The notes beneath the pieces were generated by a model. It worked only from the letters and a program-made list of their open reading frames with translations, had not been told where the DNA came from and did no database searches. A DNA stretch of 36,315 nucleotides from Clostridiales bacterium (lineage in GTDB: Bacteria; Bacillota; Limnochordia; Darwinibacteriales; B1SED10-159). This document shows positions 5,327 to 20,217 of this stretch, piece after piece (position 1 is the first letter of the stretch; each line of letters starts with the position of its first letter). Location of the stretch: the NCBI GenBank assembly GCA_003551965.1, contig PUOC01000197.1:1-36315 (forward strand), written 5' to 3'. A program made the position numbers and the translations under genes.

Positions 5327-6241
5327 CTAGTGGCGGCTAGGCGGGGCCTCTGCCTTCTGCCTTTGCTTGAGCAAGCGTTCGGCTAGCCCGGGCACTTCGC
5401 CGGCATGGGACGCCGAACCGTCAGCCCCGATGTCCTTGGCCAATTTCGGCTGGCTGCGAAACGCAGGTCCACCGACCAGAATCACAGGGGCTGCGGCGCC
5501 CAAAGACCTCACGGCCGCAATCATACGTTCGGCCGCTTCCACATGGGTATCTAAGGCGGCGCCGATGCACAACAGCCGCGGCATACCTTCGGCGGAAAAT
5601 TCCTTTATCCGCTGCGGGGTGTGGCCGCTGCCTAAGAAAAACATGTTCCAGCCCGCGGTCTTCAACCGATCCGACACCAAGCGCAGTCCAATGTCATGTT
5701 CGTTGTCCGGCGCCAGGACGGCAAACCCATCCCGCCCGTATGCCTGTCTCTGCGAGGGAAACAGCGACGGGATATGATGGGTGATGATCCGCATATGATC
5801 GAAGAACTGCATGGCAGCTGCTTCAGGAACCTTTCCGTCCTGCCAGCGTCTGAACATGGATTCCATCAGCGGGGCAACGTAATAATCAAAGACCTGATCC
5901 AGGTTGCCGGATGCATCCAGCTGTTCCTGGAGAAAGCCCATGGCTTCGTTTACCTGCCCGTTTTGAATGGCCAGTTCCAGCTTCTTAGGCTCGTCGGGAC
6001 GGAATGACTCATTCCATGGACTCCCGCCTTCCTGCCCCCAACCTTCTCGCCCCATGAGGAAGTCGATGGAAACAAGAAACACGTCGGCCAGCTGCCTCAA
6101 TGTGTCCGGTCCGGGAAAGCGCGAATTCGCTTCGTAGTTGGCAATGGTAGTCTGAGCCACATTAAGTTTCTCTGCCAGCTGCCTTTGGCCGTAGCCATGG
6201 CTCTGGCGCAGTGCCCGCAGCCTTTGTCCGAAATCTGCCAC
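5327..6241 (-). CDS. XRE-family regulator fused to a cobalamin-binding domain
   Basis: The 304-residue product begins with an XRE helix-turn-helix (residues about 3-60: RLRALRQSHGYGQRQLAEKLNVAQTTIANYE in parts), followed by a helical bundle (about 85-165) and a Rossmann-like B12-binding domain (about 170-285). NEHDIG in the last domain matches the (D/E)xHxxG motif whose histidine ligates cobalt; GSGH and VGGPAF fit the cobalamin tail-binding loops. CarH/LitR photoreceptors have the same helical and B12 modules but a MerR head. Here the capping motif W-x9-E-H of CarH reads W-x9-A-M, so light sensing by the CarH route is doubtful. GTG at 6241, 8 bases after GGGAGG, is preferred over GTG at 6250. 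It lies 36 bases after the DUF1874 gene in the same operon. Confidence 0.8.
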   Translation of the reverse strand: MADFGQRLRALRQSHGYGQRQLAEKLNVAQTTIANYEANSRFPGPDTLRQLADVFLVSIDFLMGREGWGQEGGSPWNESFRPDEPKKLELAIQNGQVNEAMGFLQEQLDASGNLDQVFDYYVAPLMESMFRRWQDGKVPEAAAMQFFDHMRIITHHIPSLFPSQRQAYGRDGFAVLAPDNEHDIGLRLVSDRLKTAGWNMFFLGSGHTPQRIKEFSAEGMPRLLCIGAALDTHVEAAERMIAAVRSLGAAAPVILVGGPAFRSQPKLAKDIGADGSASHAGEVPGLAERLLKQRQKAEAPPSRH

Positions 6242-6277
6242 ACACTCCACCTCCCAGAGCGATCTTCGATGTTAGTG

Positions 6278-6613
6278 TTATTCGAGCCGTTCAATGAGTT
6301 TGAGGCTGTAACCGATGATTTGCATTTCATCCTCGTCCAAAACAATGCCCTCTGGCGGGCGCTGCCGCAACTTTAGGGCAACGGCCTTCTGGCCCACAGC
6401 CTGGTGGAATTGAATGCGGTTCATCACAGCCCGGACGCCCAAGACAGCGGAAAGCACAGATGCGGCGGCTTCATGTCCTATGGCCGAAATGAAACCGTTG
6501 TTTTCCACCAGCGCTTTTGCCTCTTCCACGGATATGTCACCGACGCGAAATAGGCCATTGGAGGTTATGATTGGGCCATTAAACAGGGCAATGGGATGGC
6601 CTCCGTCCTTCAT
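6278..6613 (-). CDS. DUF1874 (STIV B116-like/YddF) protein, candidate Crn2/AcrIII-1 ring nuclease
   Basis: The 111-residue protein matches the DUF1874 family (PF08960) end to end: LFNGPIIT at the start, SVEEAKALV, the block SAIGHEAAASVLSAVLG, NRIQF, then LKLRQRPPEG and a terminal LIERLE. Viral AcrIII-1 and cellular Crn2 proteins of this family cleave cyclic tetra-adenylate, the messenger of type III CRISPR systems. The residues shown to matter in SIRV1 gp29 are H47, R85 and E88, and this protein has H47, R85 and E88 at the same numbers. Activity is inferred, not shown, and no type III CRISPR gene is visible here. ATG at 6613 follows AGAGGAG by 11 bases. It is the first gene of the operon. Confidence 0.82.
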   Translation of the reverse strand: MKDGGHPIALFNGPIITSNGLFRVGDISVEEAKALVENNGFISAIGHEAAASVLSAVLGVRAVMNRIQFHQAVGQKAVALKLRQRPPEGIVLDEDEMQIIGYSLKLIERLE

Positions 6614-6699: not shown

Positions 6700-8394
6700 T
6701 TAACCGTTTTCACTGCGGCCGGAGTCACCCAAGGTTCCTGACCACAGTTCGTAGCCGCCGCTTAGGCTGTAAAGGTTCGAGAAGCCGTGGTTCTGCAGAA
6801 TGCGATAGGCTGTGTAGGCCCGTTGGCCTACGGCACAGTACAAAAGAATCGGCTTCTGGTCATCCAACGCCCCGATGTGGGAACGGAATTCATCGATGGG
6901 GTAATTGACCGCGCCGGGCAGGTGCCCCTGTTCGAACTCGTCGGGTCTGCGCACATCGATGATCTGGCAGCCGTCGAGACCATCTTCCAGGTCGTCTAGT
7001 GTCAGCAGGCGGTACTGCCCTCTCATGACATTGGCCGCCACCATGCCTGCGACAATGATCGGGTCTTTAGCCGCAGAGTAAGGCGGGGCATATGCCAGAT
7101 CCAACTGCTCCAGATCATACGGCGTCATGTCGGCCATCAAGGCCGTGGCCAGGACATCGATGCGTTTGTCCACGCCTGCAAAACCCACAGCCTGTCCGCC
7201 TAGCAGCCGTCCGCTGTTGGCATCGGCGATCAGTTTGATGATCATGTCCTGGGCGCCGGGATAATAATCGGCATGGTGTCCCGAAATCGTATGGCTGACC
7301 TGAACAGCATAATCCAATGCCGCAGCCGCTCTTTCATTGAGCCCGGTGGCCGCCACGGTCAGATCGAAGACCCGGACAATCGAAGTTCCCAGAACGCCGC
7401 GGAACGCCTCCTTGGCAGGTTCCTCCGGGTGGAGATCGGCTGCTGCGTTGTGTCCGGCTATGCTGCCCTGCTTGTTGGCCGGTCCGGCCAGGGGAATACG
7501 GACGGGACAGCGTCCGCTGCAGTGATTGGTTTCCACCATGTCGCCGGCTGCATAGATATGCGGGTCGGAGGTGCGCATATAGGAATCGACCTCGACGCCG
7601 TTGTTGGGACCAATGTGCAGCTGGGCTTTTTCAGCCAGGGACGTTTCCGGGCGCACACCGATACTGAGTACCACCAAGGCTGCAGCTATTTCTTCCCCGC
7701 TTTCCAGTACAACAGACTCTACCGTTCCATCGCGGCCTTCAAAGGAGGACACTCCGTCAGAGAGAATGACCCGAATTCCCTTAGAGCGCATGTGTTCGGA
7801 AGCAAAATAGGCCATTTCCCTGTCCAAGGGCGGCATAACCTGATCCATCTTCTCTACCAGTGTGATCTGAAAGCCGCGGCGATGCAGGTTTTCAGCGATT
7901 TCCAGTCCAATGAAGCCTCCGCCGACCACGCAGACGGGGTCGTCTTTGGACAACGTCTTCACCATATCGAGAATGGCATCACCGTCGGGGATTGTCCAGA
8001 GGGTGTGAATGCCGCGGCTGTCAATTCCGGGAATCGGCGGCCGCAGGGGAACAGCACCAGTCGCCAAAATCAATCGGTCATAGTGGTCTTCAAAACTGCC
8101 GTCGGGACCCGCCACCTGAACCGTGGACTGATCGGGCTTTATCTCCGTTACTTCATGGTTCACTCGTACATCAATGCGGAGCCGATCCCAAAACCGCTGT
8201 TCGGTGACTAGAAACAGATCATCCCGGGATGGGATCTCACCGCCGATATAGTAGGGAATGCCGCAGTTTCCATAGGACACATACGGCCCCTTTTCGTAGA
8301 TCACGATTTCCACGTCTTCATTGGTTCGGCGGGCCTTGGCAGCAGCACTGGCTCCGGCTGCCACTCCGCCGACCACAAGCAAACGTTTTGTCAA
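6700..8394 (-). CDS. CoA-disulfide reductase with C-terminal rhodanese domain
   Basis: A 564-residue flavoprotein with the layout of CoADR-RHD enzymes. It has an N-terminal FAD-binding fold (LLVVGGVAAGASAAAKARR), the active-site cysteine in SYGNCGIPYY near residue 42, an NAD(P)H-binding fold (CVVGGGFIGLEIAENL), the second FAD motif (IYAAGDM) and a dimerisation domain. The last 100 residues form a rhodanese domain with the active loop CAVGQRAY. These enzymes reduce CoA disulfide, persulfides or polysulfides with NAD(P)H, so a role in thiol redox balance or sulfur reduction is likely. The frame is open to a GTG at 8403, but TTG at 8394 follows AGGTGG at 5 bases and gives the usual MTKRLLVVGG start. 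It is divergent from the BCCT gene. Confidence 0.9.
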   Translation of the reverse strand: MTKRLLVVGGVAAGASAAAKARRTNEDVEIVIYEKGPYVSYGNCGIPYYIGGEIPSRDDLFLVTEQRFWDRLRIDVRVNHEVTEIKPDQSTVQVAGPDGSFEDHYDRLILATGAVPLRPPIPGIDSRGIHTLWTIPDGDAILDMVKTLSKDDPVCVVGGGFIGLEIAENLHRRGFQITLVEKMDQVMPPLDREMAYFASEHMRSKGIRVILSDGVSSFEGRDGTVESVVLESGEEIAAALVVLSIGVRPETSLAEKAQLHIGPNNGVEVDSYMRTSDPHIYAAGDMVETNHCSGRCPVRIPLAGPANKQGSIAGHNAAADLHPEEPAKEAFRGVLGTSIVRVFDLTVAATGLNERAAAALDYAVQVSHTISGHHADYYPGAQDMIIKLIADANSGRLLGGQAVGFAGVDKRIDVLATALMADMTPYDLEQLDLAYAPPYSAAKDPIIVAGMVAANVMRGQYRLLTLDDLEDGLDGCQIIDVRRPDEFEQGHLPGAVNYPIDEFRSHIGALDDQKPILLYCAVGQRAYTAYRILQNHGFSNLYSLSGGYELWSGTLGDSGRSENG

Positions 8395-8708
8395 GATATC
8401 CACCTGCCTTGTGGGTGCATTGGTTTTTGCCGATTATGTCTAGTTTAACACGTCGGGAAGAAGAAATCACGTGGCGATCTTCGCCGAGGCGGCCAGCGCG
8501 ATTTCCCGCATCCTGCGGGAGGAGCCCAGGCTTTTGCCCGGAAATACTATTATTATCGGCTCCAGCGCGAACCTCCCTTATCCCGATGTCCCGGTTCGGC
8601 TGGCTTGGGGCAGGGGTTTTAGGAGACACGCTCCCCTCCCTACCATATCGGGCTCGACGCCCGGCGGGACCACGGCCGAAACAAAGCAGAGGAAAGGAGA
8701 CGCTCCAC
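8395..8708. other. Long divergent intergenic region before the BCCT gene
   Basis: About 310 bases lie between the reductase and carrier genes. The region holds the AAAGGAG site for the BCCT start and a small hairpin around CCCGCATCCTGCGGG (about 8508-8522). A plus-strand frame from GTG 8471 reads plausibly for about 40 residues but lacks a good ribosome binding site and overlaps the carrier start in another frame. I see no known riboswitch and no clear promoter pair. Confidence 0.4.
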
Positions 8709-10361
8709 ATGGAACGGCATGCCACAAAACAGGACGTCAACCAACGGCTTTTTAGCAGAAACTACACAAGGTTCGGCTTCGATCTCAACCCGGTGGTGTT
8801 CCTTGCTGCGTCCGCATTTGTGCTTTTGTTCTCGGCCTATGCGCTGCTGGATGCAGAACGAGCTTTCGAGATGTTCACATCGCTGCGGGCCAATATCACG
8901 GAGTCCTTTGACTGGCTGTTTATCATGGGCAGCAACTTTTACATCCTGGTCTGTCTCTATCTGGCCCTGTCCCAGTTAGGCAGTGTCCGCATCGGCGGTG
9001 TGGACAGCCGTCCTGAGTTCTCCAATCTGGCCTGGTATTCGATGCTGTTGTCCGCGGGTATGGGAATCGGGCTTATGTTCTGGGCCGTGGGCGAACCGCT
9101 CTATCATTTCGTGCAAACACCCCCCATTTTCACCGGTGCCGATGGAATACACGCAGCCCTGGCGGCTACCTTCTTCCATTGGGGCTTCCACCCGTGGGCT
9201 ATCTATGCATTGCTGGCCCTGTCCTTGGCGTTCTTTGCATACAATCAAAAGCTGCCCTTGTCGCTGCGCTCCGCCTTCTATCCCTTGCTGAAAGACCGCA
9301 TTTATGGCATCCCCGGTGACCTTATTGACACCTTTGCCGTACTGGCCACGCTGTTCGGCCTAGCCACATCTTTAGGCCTGGGTATCCAGCAGATCAACAG
9401 CGGCCTTCACCACATGCTGGGCATTGAGTTCAGTGTGGCCGCCCAGGTTGTACTGATTGCCGGCATTACCATGCTGGCCATCGTTTCGGTACTGTCCGGC
9501 ATTGACAAAGGCATTCGGATCCTGTCGCAGGTTAACATAAAACTGGCTGGCCTCTTCATGGTACTGATCCTGCTGCTCGGTCCAACCCTTTATCTGCTGC
9601 GCCTCTTTTCCAACGCACTCGGTGTGTACCTCAACCAATTTGTGGAATCGGCCCTGTATGTCAGCCAAAACGGGAATGGCTGGCAGGGAGAGTGGTCTGT
9701 CTTCTATCTGGCCTGGTGGATTTCCTGGTCGCCTTTTGTGGGAACATTCATCGCCCGCATATCCAGAGGGCGGACCATCCGTGAGTTCGTACTCGGCGTT
9801 CTCGTGATTCCTTCTCTGCTTTCCTTTGTCTGGCTGTCCGTGTTTGGCGGCACGGCCATATTCATGGATCAGAGGTTGGACGGCGGCCTATTTGCCGTGG
9901 TGGAAGGCAACCTTCCCGGTGCGCTGTTCGAACTCATCGATTCTCTTACACTGCCGTTTTTGGCCGGTGTTTTGAGCAATCTTCTCTTCGTCGTTGTCAT
10001 CGCCTTGGTGATGTCCTATTTCATCACTTCCTCCGACTCCGGCTCGCTGGTCATCGATAAGATCACATCCGGCGGAAAGCACAACGCCCCCAAACAGCAG
10101 CGGGTTTTCTGGGCCGTCATTGAAGGGCTGATTGCCGCCGTTTTGCTGGTTATCGGCGGCGAAGAAGCACTAGAAGCCCTGCAGGCTGCGGTGGTCAGTA
10201 CCGGTCTGCCCTTGAGCGTTCTGTTGATTGTCATGTCGATATCCCTTGTGCAGGGAATACAAGCAGAACACCAAGTGCAGCGGCAGATCAGGGAATCCCA
10301 GCGGCTGACAACCATTCTCCAGCGTCAGGGGCGGCTAGAAGAAGACGAGCATGACCTTTGA
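8709..10361 (+). CDS. BCCT family (betaine/carnitine/choline) transporter
   Basis: The 550-residue protein has the usual length and about twelve membrane segments of the BCCT family (PF02028). The signature WWISWSPFVGTFIARISRGR near residue 340 and the glycine-rich SAGMGIGLMFWAVGEPLYHF near residue 115 are clear; the tryptophans in these segments form the trimethylammonium-binding box. These carriers import glycine betaine, choline or carnitine, usually with sodium, as protection against salt stress. The C-terminal tail is charged and helical (QVQRQIRESQRL to the end), as in osmosensing members. The frame is open from 8229, but ATG at 8709 has AAAGGAGA eight bases upstream and begins the conserved region. 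Substrate cannot be fixed from sequence. Confidence 0.93.
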   Translation: MERHATKQDVNQRLFSRNYTRFGFDLNPVVFLAASAFVLLFSAYALLDAERAFEMFTSLRANITESFDWLFIMGSNFYILVCLYLALSQLGSVRIGGVDSRPEFSNLAWYSMLLSAGMGIGLMFWAVGEPLYHFVQTPPIFTGADGIHAALAATFFHWGFHPWAIYALLALSLAFFAYNQKLPLSLRSAFYPLLKDRIYGIPGDLIDTFAVLATLFGLATSLGLGIQQINSGLHHMLGIEFSVAAQVVLIAGITMLAIVSVLSGIDKGIRILSQVNIKLAGLFMVLILLLGPTLYLLRLFSNALGVYLNQFVESALYVSQNGNGWQGEWSVFYLAWWISWSPFVGTFIARISRGRTIREFVLGVLVIPSLLSFVWLSVFGGTAIFMDQRLDGGLFAVVEGNLPGALFELIDSLTLPFLAGVLSNLLFVVVIALVMSYFITSSDSGSLVIDKITSGGKHNAPKQQRVFWAVIEGLIAAVLLVIGGEEALEALQAAVVSTGLPLSVLLIVMSISLVQGIQAEHQVQRQIRESQRLTTILQRQGRLEEDEHDL

Positions 10362-19170: not shown

Positions 19171-20217
19171 ATGTTCAGAAATATGCGCCATCCCGATCGT
19201 TACCACGGCCGCGGGACCATGCGCGGTTTCTTTGAAGGCTGGTATTTCAAACTGGCCACAGCAGACAAAAAGCGCGTGATTGCCCTGATTCCAGGGATTT
19301 TCTGGGGCCAGACGGACGCCGAACATCACAGCTTCCTGCAGGTCCTCGATGGCGACCATATCTCCTATGACTATATCAAAATGCCGCCCGAACGTTTCCA
19401 AGCTGCGGACAGGCCCTTTAAGGTGGAACTGGGTGCAAACAGCTTTTCGCTGGATTCGATCCGGCTGCAGGCATCATCGCAGCAGACGCGCTTATTCGGC
19501 GGAGTTGATTTCGCCGGTCAAAGGGCCTGGAGGAGTTCGCGTCTTTTTCCCGGCAGTATGGGCGCTTACAACTACATACCCGGGCTGCAGTGTTACAGCC
19601 AGGTGTGCCTCATGGATGCCGAACTATCCGGGGCCCTGTCGATTAACGGAGAAGCGGTCAACTTTGAAGGCGGTCGCGTCTACGTGGAAAAGAACTGGGG
19701 GAAGGCCTTCCCCTATTCGTGGATCTGGGTGCAGTGCAATGCCTTTGACGAGCGCGCAGCCTCCCTGAGCTGCTCCATCGGACACATTCCCTTCGGGCCG
19801 GGCAGTTTCCGAGGCCATCTCGTCGGCCTCTACCATGGGGAGCAGTTCTTTGCCTTTACCACCATGAACCGTTCGCGACTGACAATCCGCTCCTTACAGC
19901 CCGATGTGAGAATGGAGCTGGAAAACCGGCGCTACTGGGTGGAAATCACAACGCAAAGCGATCCGGACACGTTCATACTCTGCCGAGGCCCCCGGGGCGG
20001 GGAGATGGTTCCCATGGTGTGGGAAACGCTGCAGGGAAAGGTGACCCTGCGTCTCTATGATAAGCGCCAGCGGCAGTATCTGTTGGAGACCCAAGGCGAG
20101 CGGGCCGGGATTGAGTACGGCGGTGACCAGATGCAGATCATTGATGGGCAGACGGAACAGACAAGCTCAACCGATTCGACGGGCAGAACAGAGCAGGACT
20201 CGGGAAACAATCGATAA
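19171..20217 (+). CDS. Tocopherol cyclase-like protein
   Basis: The 348-residue protein fits the tocopherol cyclase-like family (PF14249): R-G-F-F-E-G-W-Y-F-K near the start, YNYIPGLQCYSQVCLMD around residue 130, and VYVEKNWGKAFPYSWIWVQC around 170-190, where the E-K-N-W-G block is the family hallmark. Plant and cyanobacterial members close the chromanol ring of vitamin E; Bacillota members are not expected to make tocopherol and their substrate is unknown, probably a lipid or carotenoid-like compound. The last 25 residues are Thr/Ser/Gln/Glu-rich and look disordered. ATG 19171 follows AGAAAGGGG. The ferritin promoter lies just past its stop. Confidence 0.78.
   Translation: MFRNMRHPDRYHGRGTMRGFFEGWYFKLATADKKRVIALIPGIFWGQTDAEHHSFLQVLDGDHISYDYIKMPPERFQAADRPFKVELGANSFSLDSIRLQASSQQTRLFGGVDFAGQRAWRSSRLFPGSMGAYNYIPGLQCYSQVCLMDAELSGALSINGEAVNFEGGRVYVEKNWGKAFPYSWIWVQCNAFDERAASLSCSIGHIPFGPGSFRGHLVGLYHGEQFFAFTTMNRSRLTIRSLQPDVRMELENRRYWVEITTQSDPDTFILCRGPRGGEMVPMVWETLQGKVTLRLYDKRQRQYLLETQGERAGIEYGGDQMQIIDGQTEQTSSTDSTGRTEQDSGNNR

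Follow-up and report, generated by a model that had tools for sequence, protein, structure and literature searches.

A chromosomal clade of DUF1874 ring-nuclease candidates in Limnochordia and other Bacillota without detected type III CRISPR systems

What does a ring-nuclease gene of a kind known from viruses do in a bacterial chromosome in which no type III CRISPR gene is seen? This question is raised by a 36,315 bp stretch of DNA from a Clostridiales bacterium of the class Limnochordia (contig PUOC01000197.1), which we refer to in its entirety as the window. On its minus strand lies an open reading frame of 111 amino acids with an ATG start (6613..6278), coding for a DUF1874 (STIV_B116-like) ring-nuclease candidate. 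An earlier note on this DNA proposed that the product could be a stray anti-CRISPR, a distant partner of a type III system or an enzyme for another cyclic oligonucleotide.

The protein matched Pfam family PF08960 (STIV_B116-like) far above chance (E-value 7.4e-29), and its score of 100.3 bits, against a curated cut-off of 26, places it in the family. Alignment to the SIRV1 gp29 record (NC_004087, SIRV1gp29) paired N12 (=N8), G46, H47, N65, R66, Q84, R85, E88 and G89. H47, R85 and E88 carry the same numbers in both proteins, as the earlier note had read from the sequence, and the complete catalytic set of a ring nuclease (H47, R85 and E88) is thus present. A phmmer search with the window protein retrieved AFV3-109 (5e-18) and STIV B116 in the PDB. 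One of five AlphaFold2 models was confident (pLDDT 91.1, pTM 0.83) and the other four were poor. Using Foldseek, this best single-chain model was superimposed on AFV3-109 (2j6b, TM 0.84), on the cA4-bound Csx1-Crn2 of Marinitoga (8y7g, TM 0.85) and on SIRV1 AcrIII-1 (6scf, TM 0.81), which identifies the fold as that of B116 and AFV3-109; matches beyond the DUF1874 family were noise. The window protein is therefore a real DUF1874 protein and PF08960 member, with the ring-nuclease fold and intact catalytic residues.

PADLOC-DB model PDLC01147, which is labelled Csx16, matches the window protein, SIRV1 gp29 and a type III-linked Crn2 of Vibrio alike. The label looks like a naming matter, and it may misname DUF1874/AcrIII-1 genes in defence annotations.

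The gene was found in 21 of the 37 genomes of the Limnochordia order to which the window belongs and in none of 36 other genomes of the class. A sample of 398 genomes of the phylum added only 10 genomes with any PF08960 match. Judged by their titles, the close matches are Limnochordia and Bacillota metagenome-assembled genomes (MAGs), several of them from soda-lake sediment sets, a habitat that we infer from the isolate names. In a phylogenetic tree (described below) 20 members of the order and seven further proteins formed one clade; together with one more genome, in which the gene is partly masked (G023), this gives 28 clade genomes. H47, R66, R85 and E88 are invariant in the 20 order members and in all 27 clade members in the tree, as is N12 among clade members. 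Among the close pairs, eight had an estimable dS: pairwise dN/dS was 0.05–0.14 in six of these and 0.22 and 0.33 in the remaining pairs; dS was saturated in three further pairs. By these sequence comparisons the gene is under purifying selection. It is vertically inherited within the order, at conserved chromosomal sites.

These sites differ between families. Directly upstream of the gene in the window, on the same strand and separated by 86 bp, is a gene for a CoA-disulfide reductase-like protein with a C-terminal rhodanese domain (6700..8403, minus strand). The genomes most closely related to that of the window, G001 and G002, retain it (with gaps of about 55 and 21 bp), and it is the conserved neighbour in the window's own family (f1). 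In a second family (f4) the gene occupies a single fixed site, in the order udk (uridine kinase), DUF1874, EamA transporter, class I aminotransferase and glycerate kinase. In two genomes that lack the DUF1874 gene (G029 and G032), udk and the EamA gene overlap by a few bases exactly at the site that it occupies in their relatives, indicating clean insertion or loss there. A third apparent absence (G016) is uninformative, as the contig ends just after udk. A metabolic pathway shared with the neighbours was considered on the basis of synteny and rejected, since the neighbours vary by family (uridine kinase and EamA in f4, CoA-disulfide reductase in f1, others elsewhere).

A regulator with HTH_3 and B12-binding domains (5327..6250, minus strand) starts 27 bp downstream of the DUF1874 gene, and the earlier note had the gene leading an operon with this cobalamin-linked regulator. 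The regulator is indeed adjacent, but the gene need not lead an operon, because the end of the CoA-disulfide reductase/rhodanese gene, which has the same orientation, is just 86 bp upstream. In addition, the regulator adjoins the DUF1874 gene only in the window genome and is absent from that place in the related genomes examined; the proposed operon was rejected on account of this unconserved arrangement, and the regulator is probably an incidental neighbour. Scans for promoters and terminators gave nothing better than shuffled sequences. As a separate observation, the B12-binding domain of the regulator resembles methylamine and glycine-betaine corrinoid proteins (MtgC, MtbC), and a BCCT transporter is encoded nearby (8229–10361); a corrinoid-sensing regulator of betaine use is possible.

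The relation of the clade to viral proteins was examined in a tree with 39 viral and phage sequences. The 27 chromosomal proteins (20 from the order, six from other Bacillota families and one from a Bacteroidales MAG) grouped together with support of 100/99, and none of the 39 viral sequences fell among them; an earlier tree with 13 viral sequences had given support of 95/94. The nearest sequences outside the clade were those of Vibrio phage Rostov 7 and other phages. No relative turned up when viral contigs were scanned with the clade alignment, and a phage-centred alignment recovered 28 DUF1874 loci from the same collection, all outside the clade. Rooted on SIRV1 gp29, itself a long branch, the chromosomal clade was nested among phage sequences. 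This nesting, with the root placed on that long branch, suggests that the clade goes back to a domesticated viral gene; we consider it likely that the origin is viral and old and that domestication came later.

The closest viral relatives are DUF1874/YddF proteins of Fusobacterium and Vibrio phages (phiFN37, Fnu1 and Rostov 7), which are 44–48% identical to the window protein and have a Q-x3-Q pattern (Q71/Q75) in common with it. They lie outside the chromosomal clade and read N-T where the window protein has N12-G13. More generally, N12 is followed by G in clade members and by S, T or A in viral proteins, and from these clade-specific N-terminal changes it seems that specificity may have shifted. 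The clade signature consists of F-N-G-x3-T-x2-G, S-A-[IV]-G-H and R-x2-E-G. For the DUF1874 gene of Rostov 7 (593–928) the annotated start lies about 150 bases too far into the gene; the homologous frame continues upstream.

Could the window gene be a recent stray anti-CRISPR, left behind by a prophage or plasmid? Its fold and its closest relatives outside the clade, which are phage proteins, would fit such an origin. Against this, the gene is present in 21 of 37 order genomes at conserved sites, the clade has no viral member, no phage or integrase genes were recognised among its neighbours, and its GC and GC3 contents resemble those of the surrounding genes. A recent viral passenger, one of the proposals of the earlier note, does not agree with vertical inheritance in the order and a position outside all viral proteins sampled; this reading is disfavoured and we consider it very unlikely. 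In contrast to AcrIII-1, which is encoded by viruses or mobile elements, the gene occupies conserved chromosomal loci in a clade free of the 39 viral sequences.

No type III gene was seen in the window, and this observation of the earlier note holds for the entire genome. A RAMP model gave no match in the 3.87 Mb draft (329 contigs, 98% complete). The genome-wide search for Cas10 that the note had proposed gave a single match to the palm model (PF22335), on C187. This candidate was rejected as Cas10: it is a multi-helix protein with a C-terminal GGDEF (GGEEF) domain, a diguanylate cyclase. Contig C105 encodes type I-E CRISPR proteins (Cas6e, Cas1e and a Cas2 of the CT1978 type), and for that reason the Cas1 was rejected as a sign of type III. 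RAMPs were not found in the other 27 clade genomes either, and the reading as a distant type III partner fails for these genomes as it does for that of the window. Furthermore, the SMODS domain of CBASS synthases was not found in any of 40 genomes searched (the window's own and 39 others, including all clade genomes).

The fragmented state of the draft would allow for a Crn2 whose type III system was missed by the assembly, or is too diverged for detection. Yet RAMPs were found in 0 of 28 clade genomes, four of which are complete single-contig sequences (G299, G165, G127 and G372), and the same search detected type III systems in 25 of 101 relatives. This explanation is strongly disfavoured and the least probable of those considered. 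Type III RAMPs were present in three of the four genomes with other DUF1874 proteins, as expected if those are anti-CRISPR or Crn2 genes. Comparison of the 28 clade genomes with these four gave p = 0.0008 for the association with lack of type III (Fisher's test), a value that is too optimistic because of kinship; the association is partly confounded, with p = 0.024 when counted by family lineage and p = 0.07 within the order. Neither in its own genome nor in any of the 28 clade genomes does the protein occur in or with a type III system. It is not a Crn2 in the CRISPR-associated sense, nor is it a mobile anti-CRISPR.

The protein shares with AcrIII-1 (SIRV1 gp29, AFV3-109, STIV B116) the DUF1874 fold, H47/R66/R85/E88 and its size, at TM values of about 0.8, whereas identity to SIRV1 gp29 is low (14–19% over structural alignments). 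AcrIII-1 proteins are viral; the window protein is chromosomal, vertically inherited and found in hosts without detected type III systems. Crn2, the type III-associated form of DUF1874 (for example in Marinitoga Csx1-Crn2), resembles it in family, catalytic residues and cellular location, and differs in that the window protein has no CRISPR locus nearby and no type III genes in the genome and belongs to a separate clade. A genuine Crn2 was encountered on a plasmid of Vibrio aerogenes (NZ_AP024863.1), where a type III locus has a DUF1874/YddF gene directly next to a RAMP gene and a cas1 of very great length.

A published ring nuclease census, which analysed genes no more than 6 kb from type III loci, reported Crn2 in seven bacterial and 36 phage genomes, and concluded that Crn2 is of viral origin, with the excess in phages as support (PMC12409355). 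Since bacterial Crn2 was counted only near type III loci, the census would have missed the present clade. Our literature search, which was limited in coverage, found no description of this clade. New here is a cellular clade of a known kind of enzyme, present in at least 28 genomes and outside the search space of the census.

For the function of the clade, our best explanation is a DUF1874 ring nuclease with the AcrIII-1/Crn2 fold, domesticated by cells and working on its own to quench cA4 or a cyclic oligonucleotide like it; we rate its chances of being correct as even. The analysis establishes the family, the fold, the invariant catalytic residues, vertical inheritance, a low dN/dS for most of the close pairs and the lack of detected type III and SMODS genes; we infer the dimer, cleavage, the substrate and the biological role. 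By analogy with its relatives, a homodimer would bind cA4 (or a cyclic oligonucleotide much like it) in a pocket between the subunits. H47, aided by R85 and E88, would then open the ring in a metal-independent reaction, giving linear products with 2',3'-cyclic phosphate ends, with H47 as the presumed general acid, as in the chemistry of AcrIII-1 and Crn2 (PMC7293037, PMC7213978, PMC12830947). With no type III system detected in the hosts, resetting of a resident CRISPR response is not an option. We favour a permanently held quencher that would instead clear the cell of such signals; that these might come from type III systems arriving on mobile elements is a speculative hypothesis. The entire catalytic set has been retained in lineages without detected type III, which implies that selection still acts on cleavage. 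A known source of cA4 is nearly absent, and this counts against the quencher explanation.

That an orphan protein can handle cA4 is plausible, because the orphan ring nuclease PfCsx15, of another family, retains cA4 binding (PMC13148439). PfCsx15 ties up cA4 but cleaves it little or not at all (PMC13148439), and the window protein might likewise be a sponge that binds cA4 without turnover. PfCsx15 differs from it in having an unrelated CARF-like fold and weak catalysis, and invariant H47, R85 and E88 in all clade members would be unexpected in a pure sponge, so that we regard this as improbable.

In the main rival to the quencher explanation, cA4 cleavage would be a relic. The substrate of the clade would be another oligonucleotide, cyclic or short, from a housekeeping or defence synthase yet to be recognised, or else the clade would trim the 3' ends of RNA. 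Purifying selection in hosts without RAMPs and SMODS would fit this, as would a location among metabolic genes (beside uridine kinase in f4) and the clade-specific changes near the N-terminal loop. In Csx1-Crn2, moreover, Crn2 seems to trim RNA, and cA3 and cA6 bind competitively in the Crn2 pocket (PMC7293037). Nevertheless, the residues required for cA4 cleavage are fully retained, no co-conserved synthase was found, and the neighbourhood varies between families in a way that implies no single pathway. We consider this alternative rather unlikely.

A chromosomal clade under constraint in hosts without detected type III raises the question which cyclic oligonucleotide needs to be destroyed, or alternatively whether a resident ring nuclease explains the lack of type III systems in these hosts. 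Former viral ring nucleases that degrade a cyclic oligonucleotide made without detected type III or SMODS genes would point to an unrecognised signal, or else to a constitutive barrier that renders the chromosome refractory to type III signalling; we offer this wider proposition tentatively. The clade supplies clean proteins to assay.

Elsewhere in the window, a tocopherol-cyclase-like protein (19171–20217; PF14249, E-value 1.4e-32) is encoded next to a ferritin gene, which is unusual for an anaerobic Bacillota lineage, here a Limnochordia genome.
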